Assembly: GCA_903871555.1 (NCBI GenBank)
Contig: CAIQHM010000068.1
Location: 1 to 36,661 of the forward strand
Direction: 5' to 3'
DNA from: an uncultured Actinomycetes bacterium
GTDB taxonomy: Bacteria > Actinomycetota > Actinomycetes > Nanopelagicales > Nanopelagicaceae
Length of the DNA stretch: 36,661 nucleotides
Shown: one piece after another, positions 6,937 through 28,082 of the stretch
How positions within the stretch are numbered: the first letter of the stretch is position 1
How the letters are laid out: each line of letters opens with the position of its first letter
Position numbers and translations under genes: made by a program
The notes under the pieces: model-generated
What the model was told of the DNA's origin: nothing
The model's database searches: none
What the model saw: only the letters and a program-made list of their open reading frames with translations

Positions 6937-7599
6937 TTAATTTTTGGTTGTCGCGCTAGTAGCCAAATTTCCCAGACTTTCCAGAGCATTCACCATCATT
7001 GGCGGACATAAATCTCCGGGCGCTATTACTGGTTCAAAGTGCCACCATTCATTCTCATAAATGCGGCAAAGTCCAAATAGTGAACCGTTCTCTTCTAACC
7101 ATTTCACCGCAATTTTATCGCCTGGGTAATTAACATCAATTGCAGTTCCCCAAGGGTGGTTTGAAATATCCTTTGGCAACACCCACTTAGAAGCCTCTTC
7201 TTCGCTGCCATATTTTCTAACAGCATCTGCAAATAATTTGGCCTGTACCGCCTGCGATCTAAAGCCTGAAGTTATCTGCAATTCATAACCAAGTTTCGCC
7301 GCAGCCACTTGAGCCGCTAAGAAGCGAACTTCGAATGTGTGATTTAAAGCTGTTGGTCTAATTTCTCCGTGAACGATTGGAGAAATTCCCAATGACTCTT
7401 CATTTAAAGTACAACCCAAGCTGGTGTCACTACTGCGCAATTCTTTATTAATTGCATTGAAGCAAAGTAATTTCTGCGGTGGTGGGACGAAGCTTTGTGA
7501 TTGTGGAATAGTGCCACTTCTTGCAATTCCAATAAGAGCCGCAACAAGTAGTAGGTATCCAAGAATCGCTAATAGAAAAATACTGCGTTCTTTAGACAT
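6937..7599 (-). CDS. membrane-anchored D-alanyl-D-alanine carboxypeptidase (VanY/M15B type)
   Basis: Zinc peptidase that trims the terminal D-alanine of peptidoglycan stem peptides outside the membrane. One N-terminal helix (residues 6-27) anchors it. The M15 motifs are SGFRS (111-115), H148 and D155 in SNHPWGTAIDV, and the ENEWWHFE block with E184 and H187. I start at the ATG at 7599, which overlaps the end of the phosphodiesterase gene by eight bases. An ATG 14 codons upstream (7641) would add a polar tail inside the upstream gene with no ribosome site. It is the last gene of the envelope operon. There is no vancomycin-resistance context (no vanH/A/X), so cell-wall housekeeping is the likely role. 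Confidence 0.88.
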   Translation of the reverse strand: MSKERSIFLLAILGYLLLVAALIGIARSGTIPQSQSFVPPPQKLLCFNAINKELRSSDTSLGCTLNEESLGISPIVHGEIRPTALNHTFEVRFLAAQVAAAKLGYELQITSGFRSQAVQAKLFADAVRKYGSEEEASKWVLPKDISNHPWGTAIDVNYPGDKIAVKWLEENGSLFGLCRIYENEWWHFEPVIAPGDLCPPMMVNALESLGNLATSATTKN

Positions 7600-8266
7600 A
7601 TTTTCGGGCTTTATCTGGATAGTTCGTGATAATCCCATCAATCTTCAGTTCTTTACAATATTTCATATCGCTGCCCTCATTAACAGTCCAAGAAAATATC
7701 CGTTTACCCCGTTTTCGCAAGGATTTAACTAATTTAGGATGGCGGCTAATTAAATCAATATTCAGCGCAACAATTTGGGTTGGGGAGAGAATCGCTTGCA
7801 AATAGAATTTCGAAACCGTGCAAGCGCTATTTTTCTTAGCAAATCTTCGTGCAGCAAACCAAGAGAAGGACATGCAAATTATTTCTATACCTGAATCAGC
7901 AATTTCGGCCTGCCTCTCTTTCAATAGTGCAAGAACTTTGCGTTCAATTGCACCGCCAAAAAGGACAGGATGCTTACTTTCGATTAATAAATCTTTACCA
8001 TTTGCAATCGCTAAAGTTAGGAGTTCCTCTAAAGAAATTACTTTGGCAAGTGTTTTTAACTCACTGAATTCTATTTTTGATACGCGCTTATTAATTCCTG
8101 AAATTCTCTCGGTAGATGAATCATGAAAACAGGCAATCTTCCGATCTTTCGTTAATCGAACATCGCACTCAAAGCCATCAGCTTGATCCTCCACAGCGGC
8201 AAGATAAGCAGCCATGGTCATTTCGGGCGATCGACCCGAAGCTCCTCGATGCGCGAATACCTTCAT
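7592..8266 (-). CDS. glycerophosphodiester phosphodiesterase
   Basis: TIM-barrel enzyme hydrolysing glycerophosphodiesters, such as deacylated phospholipids, to glycerol-3-phosphate and an alcohol. The 224 residues start with the diagnostic FAHRGASGRSPE (catalytic H6-R7), followed by the metal-binding FECDVRLT (E-x-D near residues 33-35) and the second catalytic His in ACFHDSS. The C-terminal IFSWTVNE and GIITNYPD blocks are typical. There is no signal peptide, so it is cytosolic. The start codon overlaps the stop of the glycosyltransferase gene as ATGA, indicating translational coupling. In this operon it may recycle or degrade products of the CDP-alcohol transferases. Confidence 0.93.
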   Translation of the reverse strand: MKVFAHRGASGRSPEMTMAAYLAAVEDQADGFECDVRLTKDRKIACFHDSSTERISGINKRVSKIEFSELKTLAKVISLEELLTLAIANGKDLLIESKHPVLFGGAIERKVLALLKERQAEIADSGIEIICMSFSWFAARRFAKKNSACTVSKFYLQAILSPTQIVALNIDLISRHPKLVKSLRKRGKRIFSWTVNEGSDMKYCKELKIDGIITNYPDKARKYV

Positions 8267-9015
8267 TTGCCAATGACAAAACGAATTGAATTCACAAATC
8301 CAAATTTCTTAACTGGTGGTTTTATTAAGAATGCAAAGCGCATAGGTAGTGCCCAGATACCAAAAACTCGAGTAAATATTTTTGAACGGGCCAAGATGTC
8401 TCTCTTTGTATTGCGTAAATTTCCGGAACTCTCGCTTGGATGCACAGCAACAACTATTGGAAGGAACTCCCCTTTTAGGCCTGCACGTAATGCGTCAGCG
8501 ATAAATATATATTCATCGCCCAAGTAATTCTCAGCGCCGGCGCCGAAATTTTCGTCAAACTTAATCCCCGCGGATTTTATGGCTTCAGAGCGAATCATGA
8601 TTTCATAAGTAGCAGCCTTGGCTGAATTTGTTAACTTTAAAGGGTGGCCACTTTTCGGATATACCTTACGCAACTTTCCATTCTCATCGATAGCCTGAAG
8701 TAATAAAAGCGCAATATTTGGATGAGACTCAAGATAGGAAACTGCATTGCTAATTCCTGGTTCATTGAAAGTGACATCATCATCACCAAAGAGCAGATAC
8801 TTGGACGTTGTATTCTCTATGACTTTGTTTCGGCTTTTAGTAACTCCACGGTTTGATAACTCGAGCACTTTAACCTCAGGATTTAGATCAGAAATAGAAA
8901 TTGATTCCGGATTCTGAATAACAACTAAGTTCTCTACAGAATCCAAGAATTTAATGTTCTTCGCGCGGTTAGCTAAAGTTGAATAACCGATCGTAAGGAG
9001 CGAGTTCTTATTCAC
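8263..9015 (-). CDS. family 2 glycosyltransferase
   Basis: Inverting GT-A glycosyltransferase of 250 residues that moves a sugar from a nucleotide-sugar to an acceptor at the cytosolic membrane face. Visible motifs are RGVTKSRN (56-63), the metal/nucleotide-binding GDDD (77-80), and an acidic catalytic block around 153-167 (FDENFGAGAENYLGDE). The C-terminus has a hydrophobic, basic stretch that may touch the membrane. The start is GTG and overlaps the upstream membrane gene by eight bases. Its setting between an ABC-like membrane protein and CDP-alcohol transferases suggests it glycosylates a lipid or polymer intermediate. The donor sugar is unknown. Confidence 0.86.
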   Translation of the reverse strand: MNKNSLLTIGYSTLANRAKNIKFLDSVENLVVIQNPESISISDLNPEVKVLELSNRGVTKSRNKVIENTTSKYLLFGDDDVTFNEPGISNAVSYLESHPNIALLLLQAIDENGKLRKVYPKSGHPLKLTNSAKAATYEIMIRSEAIKSAGIKFDENFGAGAENYLGDEYIFIADALRAGLKGEFLPIVVAVHPSESSGNLRNTKRDILARSKIFTRVFGIWALPMRFAFLIKPPVKKFGFVNSIRFVIGK

Positions 9016-9778
9016 TGTGGGTGCGAGCCCTTGCGAACCTCATTAAACCGCTGGAAATATTTGAGAGACTTGAATTCTGCATTCGTAAACCAAAGAATAG
9101 AACCACGGTATTTGAAGGGCTGATTTCACCGTTGTAACTAAAGAAAATAAGAGCCGCAAAGAGAATCAACATCGCCATACCTGACAATAAAATTCCAGTT
9201 TCACCCGATTTAATTCGAGTGCCGATCTTTACAGAATTTGGAACGTGTTCTTTCTTTGCTTTGGCTTTAACAAAACCACGCTGTGCCTTAATTTGATTCC
9301 TAAAGATTCTTCCAAGAATCTGGAAGATTACCAAAACCACAAGAATATTTAAAAGGCCAAATTTCCAATTTAGAAAGGTAAAGAAAAGAATTACTACGCC
9401 CATTTGAGTGAATATGCTCAAGAGTGATGTTAGTTCGAAGGCCAAAGACCAGCGCCAGTTTTCTTTGCTGCGATGGACTTCTTTGTCACTTGCTTTAAAG
9501 GCTCGATCAAAAACATTCACACGATAAATTCTTTGAAAATAGTGCCCGGCTCGTGTTGCGCCAAAGAAAAGGAAGAAACCTGCGATGTAAATAACTAAGT
9601 GCGATTTAGGAAGCGTTTCTTCGTTCATAATTATTTTAGTAAAAATCTTGGCTACTGCTAACTCAGAAACTGAGATAAAGGCAGCGATTAAAACCAAGCT
9701 GATTAAAATCAAGCGATATTTTGTGGTTGGAAATAGCTGCAGCAAAGCTGCTTTAAGCTGTCCTAAGATTTGGCGCAC
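9008..9778 (-). CDS. ABC-exporter-like transmembrane protein lacking an ATPase domain
   Basis: A 256-residue membrane protein with about four to six hydrophobic helices. The first pair (residues 21-45 and 62-75), the linker RIYRVNVFDRAFKAS and the later helices resemble the transmembrane half of a type-I ABC exporter. It stops at the point where a Walker-A domain would begin (LFFGLRMQNSSLSNISSGLMRFARA, then four more residues). No nucleotide-binding domain is encoded anywhere in this operon. I do not recognise a named family. The GTG start lies 3 nt after the upstream CDP-alcohol transferase stop. It could be a diverged permease using a distant ATPase, a scaffold, or the remnant of a full exporter whose C-terminal half was lost. 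Confidence 0.6.
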   Translation of the reverse strand: MRQILGQLKAALLQLFPTTKYRLILISLVLIAAFISVSELAVAKIFTKIIMNEETLPKSHLVIYIAGFFLFFGATRAGHYFQRIYRVNVFDRAFKASDKEVHRSKENWRWSLAFELTSLLSIFTQMGVVILFFTFLNWKFGLLNILVVLVIFQILGRIFRNQIKAQRGFVKAKAKKEHVPNSVKIGTRIKSGETGILLSGMAMLILFAALIFFSYNGEISPSNTVVLFFGLRMQNSSLSNISSGLMRFARARTHSE

Positions 9779-9781
9779 GGG

Positions 9782-10564
9782 TTAATTATTCCGTAGTTTT
9801 GCGGATGAGACTATCGCCGCGATATGTCCAACCGTAACAAATGCGGCGATTCCAAGGGCTATTTTCAGTGAAATTCCATTCGCCCCAAATATGGCGACAA
9901 ACATCGTAAATTCGACAGAATGAAAGATTCTTTGAGCTGGCAGATAATTGAATAACTTCCTCGCCTTTCGAAGCACTCCTTTTATTGGCAGATTTACTCC
10001 GGATTTATCTTGAATTTTAGATAGACCAGAGAATGCTCGTGCCACATGTACCGCATCATTTAAGCCCTTATTGATAATAACTAAGATCGCAAGTAGCGCA
10101 CCAAGATATGGATAAATTGAAGAGGTGAGTGACTCATTTGGCCAGTTAGCTAACCGCAGCCCAAAGCAGATCGGTAATAGCCCTTCTGCCGCATAATGAC
10201 CCAATTTATCCAAGAAGATTCCCATTGGAGATTTAGTTTCGCGCCATCTTGCAACTTCACCATCGCAGCAATCAACCAGCATTTGCAAGTGACTTAGGAA
10301 CAGCGCCAGTGCAAGCCCTATCCAACCTTGTATTAATAGCGCAGGACCAATTGATGCACCAATCAAAATCATCATCCAGGTAACACCATTTGCAGTAATT
10401 GGCGTTCGCAAAAGAATCCGTGTTAGGTAAGGTGAAATACTTCTTTGATATAAATCAGCAATCCAATGCTCGGATGTAGAACGCCCTGTTACAGAGACCG
10501 GTTGTGAAATTTCACGTATCTGCGCGATTGTTGGGCGCGCTGGACGGTTTGGATTATTATTCAT
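9782..10564 (-). CDS. CDP-alcohol phosphatidyltransferase family protein (variant motif)
   Basis: Integral membrane enzyme that replaces CMP in a CDP-linked alcohol or lipid with another alcohol. The signature D98-x2-D101-G-x2-A-R-x8-G115-x3-D119-x3-H123 is complete except that the fourth Asp, usually proposed as the catalytic base, is His. About six hydrophobic helices surround it. The 30-residue polar N-terminus is rich in Pro, Asn and Arg. It begins 3 nt after the stop of the larger CDP-alcohol transferase and is followed 3 nt later by the ABC-like gene. The product is unknown: a phospholipid such as a phosphatidyl-inositol-type lipid, or a phosphodiester-linked head group. Confidence 0.85.
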   Translation of the reverse strand: MNNNPNRPARPTIAQIREISQPVSVTGRSTSEHWIADLYQRSISPYLTRILLRTPITANGVTWMMILIGASIGPALLIQGWIGLALALFLSHLQMLVDCCDGEVARWRETKSPMGIFLDKLGHYAAEGLLPICFGLRLANWPNESLTSSIYPYLGALLAILVIINKGLNDAVHVARAFSGLSKIQDKSGVNLPIKGVLRKARKLFNYLPAQRIFHSVEFTMFVAIFGANGISLKIALGIAAFVTVGHIAAIVSSAKLRNN

Positions 10565-10567
10565 AAA

Positions 10568-12193
10568 TCAATTCTGACTTTTCTTATGTCCGAAAATCCA
10601 CTGCACGGAGGAGACAATGAAGAATAGGAAGCCGAAGTAATAAATAAGTGGCAGAAGTGAAAGTTCAAACCAGACCCAGATTGCAATTAGCACCAAGCGG
10701 CCAAAGATAAAGCCACCCAAAATTGATAGCCACCTTGGTTTGGCTTCATTTTGGAGTGCGCGATACATATTGTCGTAATGGTTAAAGAGAATTGCAAAGA
10801 GAAGCAAGAATAATTTCGGGCGATCTAGCTCGGTTATCAATGCCAATTCTATGAAGATTGCGCCTTCTAGAAGACGAAGCAAGGAAGGAACTAACCAATC
10901 AAATCTGTTTGTTGTGTTCTTGCTGTTAATGGAGTCAATTTGGTAATCAATTAGCTCTTTGTTTAGGCGATCCTTTGGCCAAGTTACAGTTTTACGAACT
11001 CTGCCGCGAAAGACTAAAGCGATGGAAATAAGCCCAAGAATTGGCATTATTGTGAAAGTAAAGGCTGGTCCGCCAATTACCGATGATGCGCTGATAACTA
11101 ACCAACGTTCTCCGATTGGAAATTGAATTGCTTTCTTAGACCAATATTCAAACCTAGATTTCTTCTCTCGTTCAGTCGTAATATATTGATCGTTCTTGAT
11201 TTCAAAATCAAGCGGTTCTAATTGCGAACTTCGAACCTTGTTTATTCGAGCAAAGTTGTAATCAGATAAGTGTCTAAAAGTTTGGAACAACATCATTCCC
11301 ATGGCAGGAATCCATAAATCTCGGCCGTTCTTTGCAGAACCATAAGCAAGTGCAAAAAAGACTAAATATTCTTTAATTCGATCAGTTATCGCATCCAACC
11401 ACGCGCCCAATTGTGAAAATTGCCTGGTGTATCTAGCAAGCTCGCCATCGACGCAATCAATAATGATGCTTAGCTGCAATAGAACTGCTCCAGCAAAAAT
11501 TGCCCAGAAAGTTCCGCGGCTAAATTCATAAGCTGAAAATAGACCCACTGCAAAGGAGATTAAAGTAACTTGGTTTGGCGTCATTTTTAATCGGACCGCT
11601 AGCCATGTGAATAGTTTTGAAAACTTTCGCAGGACAAAGACGGAGTAAAAACCGTCGTTAGCGCGGTTTGCTAATTTCAGTCGAAGGCGCGCATCATTTA
11701 ATTCAGAGATCTGCTTTGCAACTTTTGTACGTTCCCCAAGATCTGTTGATCGAATAAATGGTGCACCTGCAACTTCTGCTGGTGCGACAACGAGTGCGGC
11801 TCTAACTAATGCAACAAGAACCAGATCAATTGCATCTCCAGCATGATTAGTATTTTTAATCTTTGTAAGGATTTCAATTATTTCGCTGCGCTGCGATTGC
11901 GAGAGTCGAATTGCACCAAGGAATGTGTGATTGCCGTGACCAACTTCATGGAACCTAGAGGTTGCACCTGTTATACGCCCCTGGCTTACTCGGGTTTCTC
12001 CGCCTTTAACTTTTGAAACTAGGGCCGTCGTAACGGTTCTTGGATAATCGGTTAATAATTCGAGGTGAGGTTTTGTTACAACAGTGGCCTGGTCAATTAC
12101 AAGTAAGTCTTGATTTCCGGATTCAAAAGCTTCGAGAATCTCAGCAATCTTGCTCCCTTGGTTAACTTCTAAGGTGCGAAGATTTTCCGTCAT
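10568..12193 (-). CDS. DUF5941-like protein: degenerate nucleotidyltransferase plus CDP-alcohol transferase
   Basis: Composite membrane protein of about 541 residues. The N-terminal 150 residues look like a degenerate nucleotide-sugar transferase fold (a VSKVKGGETRV...HTFLGAIRL pattern) without a GxGTR signature. The middle holds a full CDP-alcohol motif: D246-x2-D249-G-x2-A-R-x8-G-x3-D267-x3-D271. The C-terminal 150 residues carry further helices. The architecture matches actinobacterial DUF5941 proteins as I recall them. The ATG at 12193 has TAGATT (12201-12206) 7 nt upstream. The frame stays open to an ATG at 12352, but that would overlap the divergent cytidylyltransferase by 97 bases. The sequence just before 12193 (IDILRIHARHDRLP) could be a real first strand, possibly from the TTG at 12262, so the start is uncertain. 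Confidence 0.82.
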   Translation of the reverse strand: MTENLRTLEVNQGSKIAEILEAFESGNQDLLVIDQATVVTKPHLELLTDYPRTVTTALVSKVKGGETRVSQGRITGATSRFHEVGHGNHTFLGAIRLSQSQRSEIIEILTKIKNTNHAGDAIDLVLVALVRAALVVAPAEVAGAPFIRSTDLGERTKVAKQISELNDARLRLKLANRANDGFYSVFVLRKFSKLFTWLAVRLKMTPNQVTLISFAVGLFSAYEFSRGTFWAIFAGAVLLQLSIIIDCVDGELARYTRQFSQLGAWLDAITDRIKEYLVFFALAYGSAKNGRDLWIPAMGMMLFQTFRHLSDYNFARINKVRSSQLEPLDFEIKNDQYITTEREKKSRFEYWSKKAIQFPIGERWLVISASSVIGGPAFTFTIMPILGLISIALVFRGRVRKTVTWPKDRLNKELIDYQIDSINSKNTTNRFDWLVPSLLRLLEGAIFIELALITELDRPKLFLLLFAILFNHYDNMYRALQNEAKPRWLSILGGFIFGRLVLIAIWVWFELSLLPLIYYFGFLFFIVSSVQWIFGHKKSQN

Positions 12194-12255
12194 AAGCGGT
12201 AATCTATCGTGCCTAGCGTGAATTCTTAAGATATCGATGGGTAAAGAAGGTAGAG

Positions 12256-12951
12256 ATGGCAATTCAAGTTGTGATTCTGGCGGCTGGTATGGGAACTCGT
12301 TTAGGTAAGCCGTGGCCCAAGCCACTGACAGCCTTATCTGATGGTCGATCAATCATGCAACAACAAATGGAAAATGTTGAAAAAGTTTTTGGTAATAAAG
12401 CAAGAATTACCGTCGTGGTTGGATTCAAACTTGAAATGATTATGGAAGCACACCCCCATGCATCATTTGTTTACAACGAAATTTATGATCAGACAAATAC
12501 ATCCAAGAGTCTTCTTAAAGCGTTAAGAGCTAGCCAAGAATCCGGTGTTCTCTGGTTGAATGGCGATGTTGTTTTTGATGCCAAAGTATTAGAACGAGTC
12601 GCATCTCGAATTGAATCTGAAAAATCTTTTGTTTGTGTTAATACTTCAGCAACATCTGATGAAGAAGTTAAGTACACAGTTGATGAAAAAGGATTCATAA
12701 AAGAATTATCGAAAACTGTAAAGAATGCTCTAGGCGAAGCAGTGGGAATTAATTTCATCTCGGCATCTGAAAAAGCACATGTAATCGCCCAACTTGAAAT
12801 CTGCGCCGAGCAGGATTATTTCGAACGCGGGCTTGAACTCGCAATTGAAAAAAATGGGATTCAAATGGAGCCGGTAGACATATCTGATCTCTTTGCCGTC
12901 GAGGTTGATTTCCAGGCAGATTTAGATCGTGCAAACCAGGGTTTGAAATAA
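12256..12951 (+). CDS. phosphocholine-cytidylyltransferase-type nucleotidyltransferase
   Basis: Cytosolic GT-A-fold enzyme predicted to activate a phospho-alcohol or sugar phosphate with CTP (or another NTP). The 231 residues show LAAGMGTRLG (8-17), K22 in PKPLT, a TNTSKSLLKAL stretch (80-90) typical of LicC-like cytidylyltransferases, the metal-binding NGD at 102-104, and the EVDFQADLDRA tail. A GAAGG ribosome site lies 5 nt before the ATG. It is transcribed divergently from the DUF5941-like CDP-alcohol transferase. The natural reading is that it makes the CDP-activated substrate for the transferases on the other strand, as in inositol-phosphate cytidylyltransferase/transferase pairs. The substrate is unproven. 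Confidence 0.84.
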   Translation: MAIQVVILAAGMGTRLGKPWPKPLTALSDGRSIMQQQMENVEKVFGNKARITVVVGFKLEMIMEAHPHASFVYNEIYDQTNTSKSLLKALRASQESGVLWLNGDVVFDAKVLERVASRIESEKSFVCVNTSATSDEEVKYTVDEKGFIKELSKTVKNALGEAVGINFISASEKAHVIAQLEICAEQDYFERGLELAIEKNGIQMEPVDISDLFAVEVDFQADLDRANQGLK

Positions 12952-14793
12952 CTATTTCTTAAATCTGTTCAAGCTCACCCGAATTGCTGCTTCTACTTCA
13001 TCAATCTTGGCCTCTGAAACTTTGTGTAAGAAAGTAATTGGTTTGATCTCTTCGATATCTAAATTAGGGTCAATTGCTATGGGATCCATAACCGGTACGC
13101 CAGCGCCCAACGCGTAATCTGAATATTTAATGCCGGTTCCATGTACATATTCTTCGAAACCTTTAAACACCACCAAGGCGCAAGGAATTCCATAGCTTTG
13201 GCAAGTAATCATTACATGCATTGCACTTGTTACTACGCTCTCGTACTCATTCAATTTCTCAATAAATGCAATGATGTCATTTGGGTGTGAAATTTGAACT
13301 GAAAGTTCATCAAAATTTTCTGGCAATCTAACGGGGGCCTGTAAATGTGTGTAATGGCGAACAAGTGCAATTCGTCCATTTGTTTCACCTCTGGTAAATG
13401 GCAATATCCTGGCGAGAACTACACCTGGATCGCCAAAACAAGTTATCTCCGGTCCGCCAGAGTCTCTTAATAATTTTGCAGTGTGTGGGCCGCGAACCGA
13501 AATGTAATCAGCTTTCGGATTTAGCGCATGTTTGAAAGAACTTACGCCAGTTCCAACGACCACAGAATTTGATTTAATGAATCTTCCAACTGAACCGAGG
13601 CTAACAATATGGCTCTTATTGGTTCTATTGGTGAGGCCCTGAAAAATTATTTTATTTTCGGTGTAATGATTAAAGATAAATGGCGTCAGCCAATCACCAA
13701 AATTTCCAGGGAAAGGGTTTTCCCACCAGGATAAAGAAATCTCTTTATTTCCTGGCTTTGCGGAATACGCAAGATAGCTCGATGCAACTTTTATTGCGGC
13801 GCTTTCATACCTATTAGGGAGGACTTTGCGCCTGAAATGAGAGAGTGAAACATTGAATTCAGCGAGGTTTCCACTTTTACCGGCTGCGACTAATTTATTA
13901 ATAGTTTGATTATTAATATTGTTATGGTTTTTGCCAGTTAAGAATCCGGTTATTCCTGAAGCATCAACGATTAACCTTAATTTAGTAGAAATTCTTAAAG
14001 GTAATTTCTCTTCAATTTTCCTAACAATGCGGAGCAATTCACGCTTTGGATGCAATAAACGTCTTGCGGTATTGCCTTTATGCTGTTCTACCAAATTCTT
14101 AAAGTTTTCTACCTGACCGCTCGATCCAAATCTAAAGAAAACTTCATGGCTTTCAAGCGATCCTACGCCTTTATCAACTGCGCAATTAGAAGGAATAATC
14201 TGAAACGTCATATTTCCTGAAGTTGCCCGCCAAGCTTCCTCAAAGAAGTAGTCATCGGTTGCGCGAACAGTTGCAACCTCTTCAAAATCGGCTGCCGCTT
14301 TAATCATCGCGCGTGCTTGGTTAGAATTATTTATTCCCCAGAAACATGGCTCCCAAAATCTTCCTCGATTTTGATATCCGATTTTGGTTGGACTGCTAAA
14401 CCCACGTTGAAAACCGATTAAGTCGGCCGATGAATTTAAAATGAAATCCGGAATAGAGAATAATTCGCAATCAACATCGATCCAAAAAACTTTTTTATCG
14501 GGGTTTTTTTCACAAACTTCGGCGATGAAACCAACTTTCCGGCGGCAAATAGCCGCCCAGTCTTCGCCCTCTTTTTTTGTGATTTCACGGAGGTCGTATT
14601 GGATTCCCAAGCTCTCTAAATTCGCTTTAAGCCTTGCACCATGAGCCTTGTAATAATCATCACTGGTGAAAAATGAGCAGACTATTGCGTTCTTGATTCG
14701 AATCTCGGGCTTTATTTCGGGAAGGGGTTTTGGCTTGAACTGGCTTTCGAGGGCGGCAAAAACGTCCTTACCTTGAAAATCCAGAGTGGTCAT
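12952..14793 (-). CDS. fusion of a glycosyltransferase domain and a polysaccharide pyruvyltransferase domain
   Basis: A 613-residue cytosolic protein with two recognisable parts. Residues 33-230 resemble a GT-A glycosyltransferase: a KAHGARLKANLESLG start, a WIDVDCE metal site (D106-x-D108), and a TDDYFFEEAW block near 179-188. Residues 350-600 match the polysaccharide pyruvyltransferase family (CsaB/WcaK-like): NFGDWLTP (364-371), SVRGPHT, CFGDPGVVL (452-460) and a SAMHVMI block. The linker of about 100 residues is basic and not recognised. The predicted role is to add a sugar and then a pyruvate ketal, giving a negatively charged surface polymer. A leaderless promoter precedes the ATG, and the sulfotransferase-like gene lies 92 bp upstream on the same strand. 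Activity in each half is inferred, not shown. Confidence 0.8.
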   Translation of the reverse strand: MTTLDFQGKDVFAALESQFKPKPLPEIKPEIRIKNAIVCSFFTSDDYYKAHGARLKANLESLGIQYDLREITKKEGEDWAAICRRKVGFIAEVCEKNPDKKVFWIDVDCELFSIPDFILNSSADLIGFQRGFSSPTKIGYQNRGRFWEPCFWGINNSNQARAMIKAAADFEEVATVRATDDYFFEEAWRATSGNMTFQIIPSNCAVDKGVGSLESHEVFFRFGSSGQVENFKNLVEQHKGNTARRLLHPKRELLRIVRKIEEKLPLRISTKLRLIVDASGITGFLTGKNHNNINNQTINKLVAAGKSGNLAEFNVSLSHFRRKVLPNRYESAAIKVASSYLAYSAKPGNKEISLSWWENPFPGNFGDWLTPFIFNHYTENKIIFQGLTNRTNKSHIVSLGSVGRFIKSNSVVVGTGVSSFKHALNPKADYISVRGPHTAKLLRDSGGPEITCFGDPGVVLARILPFTRGETNGRIALVRHYTHLQAPVRLPENFDELSVQISHPNDIIAFIEKLNEYESVVTSAMHVMITCQSYGIPCALVVFKGFEEYVHGTGIKYSDYALGAGVPVMDPIAIDPNLDIEEIKPITFLHKVSEAKIDEVEAAIRVSLNRFKK

Positions 14794-14799
14794 GGGCGT

Positions 14800-14805
14800 A
14801 ACTTA
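14800..14805 (-). promoter_or_regulatory. -10 element for leaderless GT/pyruvyltransferase mRNA
   Basis: On the minus strand TAAGTT ends exactly 6 nt before the ATG at 14793, inside the 92-bp spacer after the sulfotransferase-like gene. Confidence 0.6.
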
Positions 14806-14885
14806 GATAACTCCTCTGAACCGAGTTAAAGCGCTTGGAAAACTAAATGTAGACAGAAAGTGAATTTTAGGTTCAGACTTATTTC

Positions 14886-15989
14886 TTATTTACGAATACC
14901 TTTGCGAATATCGCGCTTAATCATCTTCCAAAGAACTTTGGCCACATAACGAGTTGGCAGTTTTTCTACCACTTTTAAATCTATTGCAATCAAAGCTTTA
15001 GCAGCTAGTTCAACCGGGATCATAGTTATTTCGGGATTATCGCCTACCGCAATCTGGGCGGATTCAAATGAATCAATATCTCCAATTATTTTGATTCCAA
15101 GGTTCTTTATTTTTTCGACATTCTTAGCCGAAACTTCCTTCGCAATATCTACGGCCCATTGTGGGGTTAATAGCCTGGCATCGCCAGGTTCGGGAGTTAC
15201 CTTGTTAGTTAGGTACTTAATGGCGCCATTTCTAATAAAGGTTTCATAGTCATGCCAGCTACGCTTCTTCGGAAACTTCTTGTTAATAGTGTTTAAAAGA
15301 GTTATCTCATTTAATGATAGTGAACGATTGCTATCTTTGTCGTTTTGCGGCGCTAAGAAACCCGGCTTTAATCCAAGAAGTGCATTAAATTGATCATACA
15401 TAAATTCTGGATTCTTCTCGTCGACAATAAGGAGAATTACATTCTCGCCGCCGAAATGCTTAATCCACTTTGCTAAAACATCGGCATGCATATGGCGAAC
15501 CCAGAATGATGGTGTAATTGTGGAAACTCCTGGTTCATCCAAGATCGAATGCAGCCACTTTTCATAGCTACTTTTTATACCGATTTTTAAATGTTGTTGA
15601 TAGGCAGATGGAATAATCTTCAAGAGTGGGCGTAGGGTGAAACAAATAGTTACATCACTTGTGCCAAGATCTTTCTTAAATTTTATGATTTGTTCTTCGG
15701 TTAATTCACATAAGAATTCCGAACTAATTAGAACGGTCGATTTTGCACCTTTTATTGTCTTTACAAATCTGCGCCACTTTTCATCAGTTGCCAGGACTCC
15801 TCCGCGATCTTCCCAACCCCAGGTTTTCCCCATAAGAGAATAAACAGCCTTGTGATGCGCTTTTCCACCAACGTGTGGATAAGTTATTCCTGCGCCATCT
15901 AATTCATTGGTGGCCGCAAAGAAGCTTGATTGAATGGCAGTTGTTCCGGTCTTATGGAAACCGGCATGAACAAATATTTTCTTCGCCAT
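14886..15989 (-). CDS. sulfotransferase-like protein
   Basis: A soluble protein of 367 residues with the 5'-phosphosulfate-binding loop of PAPS-dependent sulfotransferases near its N-terminus: VHAGFHKTGTTAIQ, with K13-T-G-T-T. Farther along, FTLRPLLKIIPSAYQQ resembles the 3'-phosphate-binding R...S segment. It would move sulfate from PAPS to a sugar or lipid acceptor. I use the ATG at 15989, because the loop normally starts within ten residues of the N-terminus. The alternative at 16040 overlaps the upstream hydrolase gene by 28 bases. A TAAAGT hexamer (15997-16002) ends 7 nt before the chosen ATG. Some members of this fold act on other activated donors, so sulfation is inference. Confidence 0.75.
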   Translation of the reverse strand: MAKKIFVHAGFHKTGTTAIQSSFFAATNELDGAGITYPHVGGKAHHKAVYSLMGKTWGWEDRGGVLATDEKWRRFVKTIKGAKSTVLISSEFLCELTEEQIIKFKKDLGTSDVTICFTLRPLLKIIPSAYQQHLKIGIKSSYEKWLHSILDEPGVSTITPSFWVRHMHADVLAKWIKHFGGENVILLIVDEKNPEFMYDQFNALLGLKPGFLAPQNDKDSNRSLSLNEITLLNTINKKFPKKRSWHDYETFIRNGAIKYLTNKVTPEPGDARLLTPQWAVDIAKEVSAKNVEKIKNLGIKIIGDIDSFESAQIAVGDNPEITMIPVELAAKALIAIDLKVVEKLPTRYVAKVLWKMIKRDIRKGIRK

Positions 15990-25958: not shown

Positions 25959-27401
25959 ATGAGCGAAGAGAAGGATGGAAGCCGCAAATACGATGCGGCG
26001 AATCCAAAACCTTTAGCTGATTTTATGAAAACTGGCTGGGCCCCAACTCCGTTGGAAGGAATTATTCCCAATCCGGCAATCAAGTTCTGTAAAGAACGAA
26101 TCAAGAAAATCTCTGCGAAATATCCGGGCAAGCGAATTGTTTTGCCAGCTGGTGGCTTAAAGGTCCGAAGTAATGACACTGATTTTCGATTCCGTCCACA
26201 TTCTGGATTCTCATATTTCACCGGGATAACTGGAAGTGATGCGGTTCCTGATTCAGTTTTTATTCTTGAACCTCGCGCCGATGGTCATGAAGCGCTGTTA
26301 TTTATTCATCCGCGTTCGCCTCGTGACACTGCAGAGTTTTATCGCGATGCCAAGCATGGTGAATTTTGGGTTGGCCGCCGAATGACTTTAGATGAAACAG
26401 AGCGCAAATATGGCTTTTCAGTTCGACAGATCGAAGATCTTGCAGATTTCTTGAGCGATGAGAAACCAGCTGTTTATGTCCGTGGTGAAAATAAAGTTGT
26501 TGATAAGGCAATCTCTAAAGATAAATCAGAGAGCGCAGAATTGCTGACTTATCTCTCTGAAATCAGATTGGTTAAAGATTCTTTTGAAATCGCTGAAATG
26601 CAGAAGGCGGTTGATGCAACTAATCGAGGCTTTGCTGACATGGTTCGAGTTTTTGGGGCAGCAACATCTGTAGCACGGGGCGAGCGAATAGTTGAAGCAG
26701 CTTTCTTTGGTCGGGCTCGGCTTGAAGGAAATGATTTGGGTTATGACACCATCGCAGCTTCCGGTTCACATGCTTGTATTTTGCATTGGATCCGAAATGA
26801 TGGCGATGTAAAGAGCGGTGATTTGATTCTGATTGATGCCGGAATTGAAGTTGATTCACTTTACACAGCAGATATAACTCGAACTCTGCCGATCAATGGA
26901 AAATTTTCACCAGCACAACGAAAGATTTATATGTTGGTATATGAAGCACAGAAAGCTGGCTTTGCCGCTGTTAAGCCTGGTGCAAGATTTAAAGACATAA
27001 CTGCAGCTGCTCATGCGGTACTTGCTAAAGGATTAGAAGAGATGGGCGTCTTGCCGATTACTGCTGAAGAATCATTAAAGCTAGATGTTGGCTTGCACAG
27101 ACGATGGACGGTTCACGGAGTAAGTCACATGCTTGGTATTGATGTTCACGATTGCAATGATGCGCGCCGAGAACAGTATTCCGACGGCATCTTAGAAGCC
27201 GGGATGATTCTTACTGTGGAACCTGGTTTATATATTCATCCAGATGACGAACTTTTCCCTGCGGAATATCGCGGGATTGGTGTGCGCATCGAGGATGATG
27301 TTTTAGTAACAGAAACTGGTTGTCGGGTTCTTTCAAATAAATTACCAAGTCATCCAGATGAGGTTGAAGTATGGATTTCAAACTTAACTCGTTCTAACTA
27401 A
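25959..27401 (+). CDS. pepP: Xaa-Pro aminopeptidase P (M24B)
   Basis: Cytosolic dinuclear-metal peptidase removing an N-terminal residue before proline. The 480 residues have an N-terminal aminopeptidase-P domain (FRPHSGFSYFTG near 78-89) and a pita-bread catalytic domain. The five metal ligands are present: D293 (LIDAGIE), D305 (YTADITRT), H390 (GVSHMLGIDVHD), E421 (TVEPGLY) and E445 (VRIEDDVLV). The start has a leaderless-type promoter. The first 30 residues are polar and probably flexible. The end overlaps the end of the convergent crcB gene by eight bases, leaving no room for a classical terminator between them. Confidence 0.94.
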   Translation: MSEEKDGSRKYDAANPKPLADFMKTGWAPTPLEGIIPNPAIKFCKERIKKISAKYPGKRIVLPAGGLKVRSNDTDFRFRPHSGFSYFTGITGSDAVPDSVFILEPRADGHEALLFIHPRSPRDTAEFYRDAKHGEFWVGRRMTLDETERKYGFSVRQIEDLADFLSDEKPAVYVRGENKVVDKAISKDKSESAELLTYLSEIRLVKDSFEIAEMQKAVDATNRGFADMVRVFGAATSVARGERIVEAAFFGRARLEGNDLGYDTIAASGSHACILHWIRNDGDVKSGDLILIDAGIEVDSLYTADITRTLPINGKFSPAQRKIYMLVYEAQKAGFAAVKPGARFKDITAAAHAVLAKGLEEMGVLPITAEESLKLDVGLHRRWTVHGVSHMLGIDVHDCNDARREQYSDGILEAGMILTVEPGLYIHPDDELFPAEYRGIGVRIEDDVLVTETGCRVLSNKLPSHPDEVEVWISNLTRSN

Positions 27402-27732
27402 CTATTTGAACACCAGCCCAAGCTGCGAAGAGCCCAAAAATAAGTGAGGCGCTGACATTTATGAGCGCATCACGATATTTGCGTAATTCATAGGCTAGAT
27501 AAAGATCGAGCATAAATGTTGACCATGTAGTAAATGCACCTGCGAAACCAATGGCTAGTAATTCATGCACTTTTTCACTTGATTTAAAAGTTAGGCCGAT
27601 AAAGAAAGAGCCAAGAATGTTTACAGTGAAAGTTCCATACGGCTTTGTTGTAAATCGCCTAATGTATTGATCGATTGCATATCGAGCAGGGGCACCAATT
27701 GCAGCACCAATCATTACTAATAAAGTATTCAT
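27394..27732 (-). CDS. crcB: fluoride channel CrcB/Fluc, second copy
   Basis: A 112-residue membrane protein with four helices that exports fluoride as an antiparallel dimer. The family marks GAAIGAPARY (9-18), YGTFTVN38ILGSF and GFAGAFTTWSTF (62-73) are present. Its ATG overlaps the stop of the first crcB gene by four bases. Two adjacent, differing copies usually form a heterodimer of fixed opposite orientation. The 3' end overlaps pepP. Confidence 0.93.
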   Translation of the reverse strand: MNTLLVMIGAAIGAPARYAIDQYIRRFTTKPYGTFTVNILGSFFIGLTFKSSEKVHELLAIGFAGAFTTWSTFMLDLYLAYELRKYRDALINVSASLIFGLFAAWAGVQIVS

Positions 27733-28082
27733 TCGCGCACCGGAATAGTTTTTCTAGCAATCGGAAGAACTATCGCAACAAGTAATAAACTTAGGACCAC
27801 ATTTGTTAGAAGATATAGAAGCCCACCATCTGTTGGTTCAATTGAATGAACGGTTACGGCAGAAAAAGTTGTCATACCAGCGCAGAAACCAGGAAGCAGA
27901 ATTAAACGTAATTTAGTGATTCCACGGCGCTCCATTAAAACTAGAAGCGCTGATGCAAGTGCAACTCCAATTAAATTAGCGATAAGCGTGCCTGGTCTAT
28001 CTTGTGGAATTAATAATCCAATTCCGTATCGAACCAATGTTCCTGCTACTCCGCCGAAAGAGACAAGTAGCAATGGGTTCAT
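27729..28082 (-). CDS. crcB: fluoride channel CrcB/Fluc, first copy
   Basis: Partner of the following crcB: 117 residues, four helices, with GGVAGTLVRYG (10-20), PGTLIAN36LIG and GFCAGMTTFSA (65-75). It starts 3 nt after the sdhB stop, so it is read from the succinate dehydrogenase promoter. No fluoride riboswitch fits in that gap, suggesting constitutive fluoride export tied to respiration-gene expression. Confidence 0.93.
   Translation of the reverse strand: MNPLLLVSFGGVAGTLVRYGIGLLIPQDRPGTLIANLIGVALASALLVLMERRGITKLRLILLPGFCAGMTTFSAVTVHSIEPTDGGLLYLLTNVVLSLLLVAIVLPIARKTIPVRE

Follow-up and report, generated by a model that had tools for sequence, protein, structure and literature searches.

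The stretch of DNA analyzed here (the window; 36,661 nucleotides, contig CAIQHM010000068.1) comes from a 1.34 Mb genome of an uncultured freshwater member of the order Nanopelagicales (phylum Actinomycetota) and carries, at positions 6937-15989, a gene block encoding two different CDP-alcohol phosphotransferases (CDP-APs), termed here BIG and SML, and a stand-alone cytidylyltransferase, termed NTP. Examination of the sequence and of family profiles agreed with the gene content, strands, and coordinates proposed in the initial annotation, with the exception of the BIG start, which had been listed at 12352 and is too long; the start in most relatives corresponds to the ATG at 12193, and this sets the gap to the divergently transcribed NTP gene at 62 bases. 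The minus-strand genes, transcribed in the order BIG, SML, ABCT, GT3, GDPD, and VanY, overlap or lie at most 4 bases apart and, judged by sequence, thus form an operon, from which NTP diverges as had been proposed. The locus comprises the following features (TM, transmembrane):

6937-7641, minus strand: VanY-type D,D-carboxypeptidase with one N-terminal TM helix (PF02557, E 1.5e-12); accessory
7592-8266, minus strand: GDPD, cytoplasmic glycerophosphodiester phosphodiesterase (PF03009, E 1.6e-33)
8263-9015, minus strand: GT3, family-2 glycosyltransferase (PF00535, E 3.4e-8)
9008-9778, minus strand: ABCT, by predicted fold a type-IV ABC-exporter transmembrane domain without a nucleotide-binding domain
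9782-10564, minus strand: SML, small CDP-AP (PF01066, E 1.2e-8) with His at D4 of the signature
10568-12193, minus strand: BIG, large CDP-AP/DUF5941 protein of 541 aa, with a degenerate NTP-transferase domain, an intact CDP-AP catalytic domain, and DUF5941 (TM7-10)
12194-12255, no strand: BIG/NTP divergent intergenic region of 62 bases, between start codons at 12193 (minus) and 12256 (plus)
12256-12951, plus strand: NTP, stand-alone cytidylyltransferase of the NTP_transf_3 fold (PF12804, E 3.5e-18), proposed CTP:polyol-phosphate cytidylyltransferase
12952-14793, minus strand: pyruvyltransferase-domain protein of 613 aa (C-terminal PF04230, E 1.5e-10, residues 371-540); accessory
14886-15989, minus strand: sulfotransferase-like protein with a PAPS-loop-like GFHKTGTT motif (PF00685 under cut-off)

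The window locus is a reduced and re-equipped, that is derived, member of a teichoic-acid-type locus family. Kin loci across Actinomycetota (other Nanopelagicales, Microbacteriaceae, Streptomyces, and others) contain the same SML, usually with NTP, and further encode a TagF-like polymerase, a TagGH exporter or, in Streptomyces-type loci, a glycerol-1-phosphate (G1P) dehydrogenase (G1PDH). BIG was found in 39 of 201 Nanopelagicales genomes and, among 396 genomes sampled from the phylum, 19 yielded DUF5941; BIG and SML co-occur, more often than by chance, in 38 of the 41 loci fetched with BIG and are adjacent in most of them. The locus type of Streptomyces and several other actinobacteria comprises BIG, NTP, G1PDH, SML, a family-2 glycosyltransferase (GT2), TagG, and TagH, the Fe-ADH protein of Streptomyces matching the G1PDH model with E 2.7e-70, yet under the equivalog cut-off. 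Among Nanopelagicales, groups g6/g13 carry NTP and an adjoining TagF-like gene opposite BIG, SML, and GT2, and groups g1/g2/g7, which include the window, carry NTP opposite BIG, SML, ABCT, and GT3, in most cases accompanied by GDPD and the sulfotransferase-like gene. A deep-Baikal Nanopelagicales locus (L110) combines TagF-like, TagG, TagH, sulfotransferase-like, BIG, SML, GT2, and LCP ligase genes. Microbacteriaceae loci, identified in a scan with SML, contain SML, GT2, and a TagF-like gene, mostly followed by TagH, TagG, and NTP on the opposite strand, and have no BIG.

These neighbors of the conserved core (TagF-like, TagGH, G1PDH and, in L110, LCP) support in outline the CDP-activated phosphodiester product at the cell surface suggested by the initial annotation, whose statement that the set could not be matched to a described pathway was too strong: the set is teichoic-acid-like, and synteny of the Streptomyces genes is reported in passages of a recent survey (PMC13118837). 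Neither the core nor the sulfotransferase-like gene was found to be conserved separately with unrelated partners. The assignment of all parts to one pathway is not supported for VanY, which only genus g1 has at the end of the operon, or for the pyruvyltransferase-domain protein, which is restricted to g1/g2.

The kin loci also yielded several side observations. In L110, a SpoIID-domain protein (9191-10903) is encoded beside the LCP ligase. Streptomyces-type DUF5941 loci L071-L074 adjoin hopanoid-type squalene synthesis genes (hpnC/D/E-like) and an IPP isomerase-like gene, as labeled from sequence, and L081 and L082 encode GT2-TagF fusion proteins beside BIG, with SML and G1PDH not found in those stretches. 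Two g2 genomes (L058, L059) have BIG, SML, and ABCT arranged in a permuted order. Nanopelagicales-type loci L105, L118, and L121 occur in records titled Bifidobacterium breve and Rubrivirga, titles that look wrong.

The presence of two different CDP-APs had been annotated correctly; the loss of a catalytic residue in one and the eukaryote-like TM extension in the other had escaped notice. The CDP-AP signature is D1xxD2G1xxAR...G2xxxD3xxxD4. In SML, D4 is replaced by His in 31 of 38 loci and by Ala in the remaining 7, all of group g18 (Streptomyces, as assigned from gene content), and a second set of loci shows His, followed by Tyr, in 80/80; as the two sets share at least seven contigs (L106-L109, L116, L123, L124), they represent about 110 distinct loci. 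Asp is retained at D4 in every one of the 26 further CDP-AP motifs, among them those of BIG, that were read in related genomes. SML proteins form one clade in the CDP-AP tree (support 100/99), of which only the SML/BIG split was used because the outgroup branches are very long. In MtPIPS, the D4 mutant D93N retains binding but is nearly inactive (PMC4634129), which implies that SML either uses another base or is not catalytic in the usual way. The loss of D4 across the whole SML family, as read from sequence, appears to be a new feature and would break a rule of the CDP-AP family.

BIG (PF01066, E 3.6e-12; PF19365, E 6e-8) possesses the complete signature with all eight residues (DCVDGELAR...GAWLDAITDR), and its D4, as DR, is kept in 41/41 loci. 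Its predicted model (pLDDT 86) has 10 TM helices, and the best structural matches are the eukaryotic CHPT1/CEPT1 (Z 20.4-21.1, about 300 residues over 190-553, TM7-10 included); the match to these 10-TM proteins over this range indicates that DUF5941 corresponds to TM7-10. Lower scores were obtained for AF2299 (Z 17.7, with the alignment also spanning the N-domain) and PIPS (Z 14), and IPCT-DIPPS was likewise among the fold matches. The N-domain shows an NTP-transferase-like fold lacking the LAAGxGxRL...PK nucleotide loop, and the E129/H133 pair of CHPT1 (positions D3-3 and D3+1) is absent from BIG, with Ala at both positions in the window (GAWLDAITD). In several lineages (f40, f43, f48, f17), DUF5941 is a separate ORF starting from the end of TM6. 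The 10-TM arrangement has been presented as absent from known prokaryotic structures and proposed to have arisen by duplication or fusion (PMC10182977), and a literature search found no paper on DUF5941; the bacterial, eukaryote-like 10-TM arrangement predicted for BIG (CDP-AP plus DUF5941) looks new.

The best PDB profile matches of NTP are PntC (6pd1), LicC (1jyk), and IPCT (2xme/4mnd). The phosphocholine type named in the initial annotation is one among these three closely placed types. The LAAGxGxRL...PK loop of NTP is invariant, and NTP lies in or near most kin loci. The G1PDH of Streptomyces-type loci and the TagF-like neighbors point to CDP-glycerol as the NTP product; a literature search found no paper on glycerol-1-phosphate cytidylyltransferase.

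ABCT showed no Pfam family above cut-off, and its profile gave only chance-level matches to PDB sequences, so its identity rests on the fold, which is also the support for the 'ABC-like' label given earlier. The AlphaFold2 model (pLDDT 83; 256 aa) ends after TM6, and all 50 PDB matches listed are type-IV ABC-fold proteins (Z 15.2-17.6), among them MsbA (Z 17.6, 249 residues, rmsd 3.2); Foldseek matches were weaker (best E 8e-4, TM-scores of about 0.4-0.65). As modeled, ABCT would be an ABC-exporter membrane domain with no ATPase in the same protein, which appears to be a new feature, and a partner ATPase may be encoded separately.

GT3 fills the place of the kin-locus GT2 (cl7) and aligns with cl7 glycosyltransferases at about 20% identity. 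GDPD, with no TM or signal segment by hydropathy, is in the operon in 14 of 18 ABCT-bearing loci. In several Nanopelagicales, as in L110 and loci like it, TagH and BIG flank the sulfotransferase-like gene within the operon. The encoded protein had been annotated as sulfotransferase-like, consistent with its conserved GFHKTGTT motif; 8 of 12 family members match PF00685 (best E 4.4e-4), but under the Pfam cut-off, as does the window protein (12.8 bits, cut-off 22), and no sulfotransferase was found with its profile in the PDB. The 613-aa protein was described earlier as a glycosyltransferase/pyruvyltransferase fusion, of which the pyruvyltransferase part was recovered; for its N-terminal half, Pfam, NCBIfam, and PDB sequences gave no match, and the whole protein had no relative among PDB sequences. 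It is present in 7 of 18 ABCT-bearing loci. Given their narrow distribution, this protein and VanY (TM 17-45 by hydropathy) were set aside as accessory. Elsewhere in the window (27394-28082, minus strand), two neighboring small membrane proteins of 112 and 117 aa were labeled CrcB/Fluc-like from their sequences.

From gene content, kin loci, motif states, and predicted folds, we infer substrates, acceptor, transport, and product, and we consider it probable that the locus, as a derived teichoic-acid-type locus, makes a polyol-phosphate lipid or polymer of the cell surface by the following mechanism. NTP would make a CDP-polyol, most likely CDP-glycerol, from which the predicted 10-TM BIG would transfer polyol phosphate to a membrane lipid or glycolipid, as cholinephosphotransferases of the Kennedy pathway do with diacylglycerol. 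SML, a second CDP-AP without the usual catalytic Asp, would use another base or serve as a binding or assembly partner, and in Microbacteriaceae would work without BIG, beside a TagF-like gene. GT2 would add a sugar, the sulfotransferase-like and pyruvyltransferase proteins may add negative charge, ABCT would take over from TagGH the movement of the lipid-linked product, and GDPD may recycle glycerophosphodiesters. The window genome has no TagG permease homolog (query L110 TagG, E 1e-3) and no TagF/TagB-type Glyphos_transf (PF04464) match, the latter family being found in g6/g13, one Microbacteriaceae locus, and other kin; a short phosphoglycolipid is therefore a likelier product than a long polymer. 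An LCP ligase is encoded outside the locus, on contig C82 (E 2.5e-41). A narrower version, in which a (lipo)teichoic-type glycerol-phosphate molecule is made by a Kennedy-like route, with a CDP-polyol, 10-TM BIG acting on a lipid acceptor, the Asp-less CDP-AP family and, in Nanopelagicales, ATPase-less ABC export, is proposed only tentatively.

Several points weigh against this interpretation. The missing TagF is one of them, and the folds of BIG and ABCT are predicted ones. Extra C-terminal TM helices have been tied to lipid acceptors (PMC4634129), but the acyl-tail chamber of CEPT1 is placed in TM1-6 (PMC10156783), so TM7-10 need not imply a lipid acceptor, and the lipid acceptor of BIG is put forward as putative. 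The TagG homolog is missing in 7 of 8 ABCT-bearing Nanopelagicales genomes and present in 4/4 without ABCT, but this is a small sample (n=12 tested) of related genomes, and the exchange of TagG for ABCT is confounded by phylogeny. The Nanopelagicales tested yielded no G1PDH, their weak matches looking aroB-like by length and score; G1P was consequently dropped as the polyol in the window, which could instead derive from sn-glycerol-3-phosphate or inositol-1-phosphate. MIPS is present in most Nanopelagicales genomes, and an Arg following D4, as in BIG, is found in inositol-phosphate users (PMC6506517), although it also occurs in other CDP-APs of the same genomes.

The last two points would also fit an inositol-based pathway, in which NTP is an inositol-1-phosphate cytidylyltransferase and BIG, resembling DIPP synthase, leads to a CDP-inositol-derived phospholipid or solute. 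In NCBIfam, the CDP-AP domain of BIG matches the IPCT/DIPPS model best (75 bits); among PDB sequences, BIG is best matched by AF2299 and IPCT-DIPPS, and IPCT 2xme is among the profile matches of NTP. However, Streptomyces-type loci are linked to G1PDH rather than MIPS, in g6/g13 the gene next to NTP is TagF-like, no NTP loop is present in the N-domain of BIG, DIPPS has no counterpart of the DUF5941 extension, and MIPS gave no match in 4 of 20 Nanopelagicales genomes (G168, G062, G047, G180; loci L051, L052, L055, L058; completeness 82-94%), which makes this pathway unlikely. Still less probable is a Kennedy-type pathway in which phosphocholine, phosphoethanolamine, or a phosphonate is the substrate activated by NTP, with ordinary phosphatidylcholine, phosphatidylethanolamine, or a phosphonolipid as the product of BIG: the PntC and LicC matches of NTP and the CHPT1/CEPT1 fold of BIG agree with it, but BIG has Ala at both positions of the pair proposed to be catalytic in CHPT1, the locus has no kinase, choline, or ethanolamine gene, and bulk phospholipid would not need the polymer and export genes of kin loci.

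Within the teichoic-acid-type interpretation, SML and BIG may constitute one enzyme, a heterodimer of catalytic BIG and a pseudoenzyme partner. Solved CDP-APs are mostly homodimers. The frequent adjacency of the two genes, D4 intact in BIG and lost in SML, the binding retained by nearly inactive D93N (PMC4634129), and Ala at SML D4 in Streptomyces would suit such a pair, but Microbacteriaceae carry an SML gene with neither BIG nor a further CDP-AP motif within about 6 kb of it, and His is fixed at its D4 there, which speaks against SML as a mere partner of BIG. An obligate pair is thereby weakened as the explanation of the lost D4, and we regard the heterodimer as rather doubtful.

Specialists are most likely to be surprised by the SML motif loss and the predicted 10-TM arrangement of BIG: a CDP-AP clade without the fourth Asp tests the accepted mechanism, and a bacterial 10-TM case in which nature divides the gene at the end of TM6 is informative about the origin of this arrangement. 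Streptomyces and other actinomycetes make lipoteichoic acid (LTA), but no clear LtaS orthologue was known from actinobacterial genomes, and the biosynthetic route has been called open (PMC3196553). The conserved locus, with G1PDH, cytidylyltransferase, unusual CDP-APs, and TagGH, is a testable candidate for this route in culturable strains, and a Kennedy-like route, if true, would give LTA synthesis in bacteria without LtaS. Literature searches found no paper joining Nanopelagicales and teichoic acids, and none joining CDP-alcohol, teichoic acid, actinobacteria, and cytidylyltransferase.

Several known systems share features with the locus. SbmA/BacA possess an ABC-exporter fold without ATPase; predicted ABCT likewise has the ABC transmembrane fold and no nucleotide-binding domain, but showed no Pfam match to that family. 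The Archaeoglobus fulgidus proteins AF2299 and IPCT-DIPPS, like BIG, fuse a cytidylyltransferase-like N-domain to a full-signature CDP-AP domain, whereas BIG carries the additional TM helices of DUF5941 and a separate gene encodes NTP, which is likely the active enzyme. With CHPT1/CEPT1, the predicted BIG has in common the 10-TM arrangement (Z 20-21), but differs in the missing E129/H133 pair, the extra N-terminal domain, and the separate encoding of TM7-10 in some lineages. The wall teichoic acid pathway (TagD/TagB/TagF/TagGH/LCP) resembles the locus in the proposed CDP-polyol activation and in the TagF-like, TagGH, and LCP proteins of kin loci; in contrast, NTP is not TagD-type, CDP-APs are added, and TagF and TagG were not found in the window genome. 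In S. roseosporus, a TagG, not equated here with that of the locus, is a wall teichoic acid permease and can be replaced by B. subtilis TagG. Streptomyces has a separate wall teichoic locus with TagF and TarIJ (PMC13274773), and a 2026 synteny survey groups a Streptomyces tagG/tagH/araM/CDP-AP/GT2/NTP block with teichoic acid synthesis (PMC13118837), its relevant passages giving synteny, not motif or fold features. The window shares the NTP, CDP-AP, and GT2 core with this block, to which Streptomyces adds TagGH and G1PDH, whereas the window, lacking these, carries ABCT, GDPD, sulfotransferase-like, and pyruvyltransferase genes.

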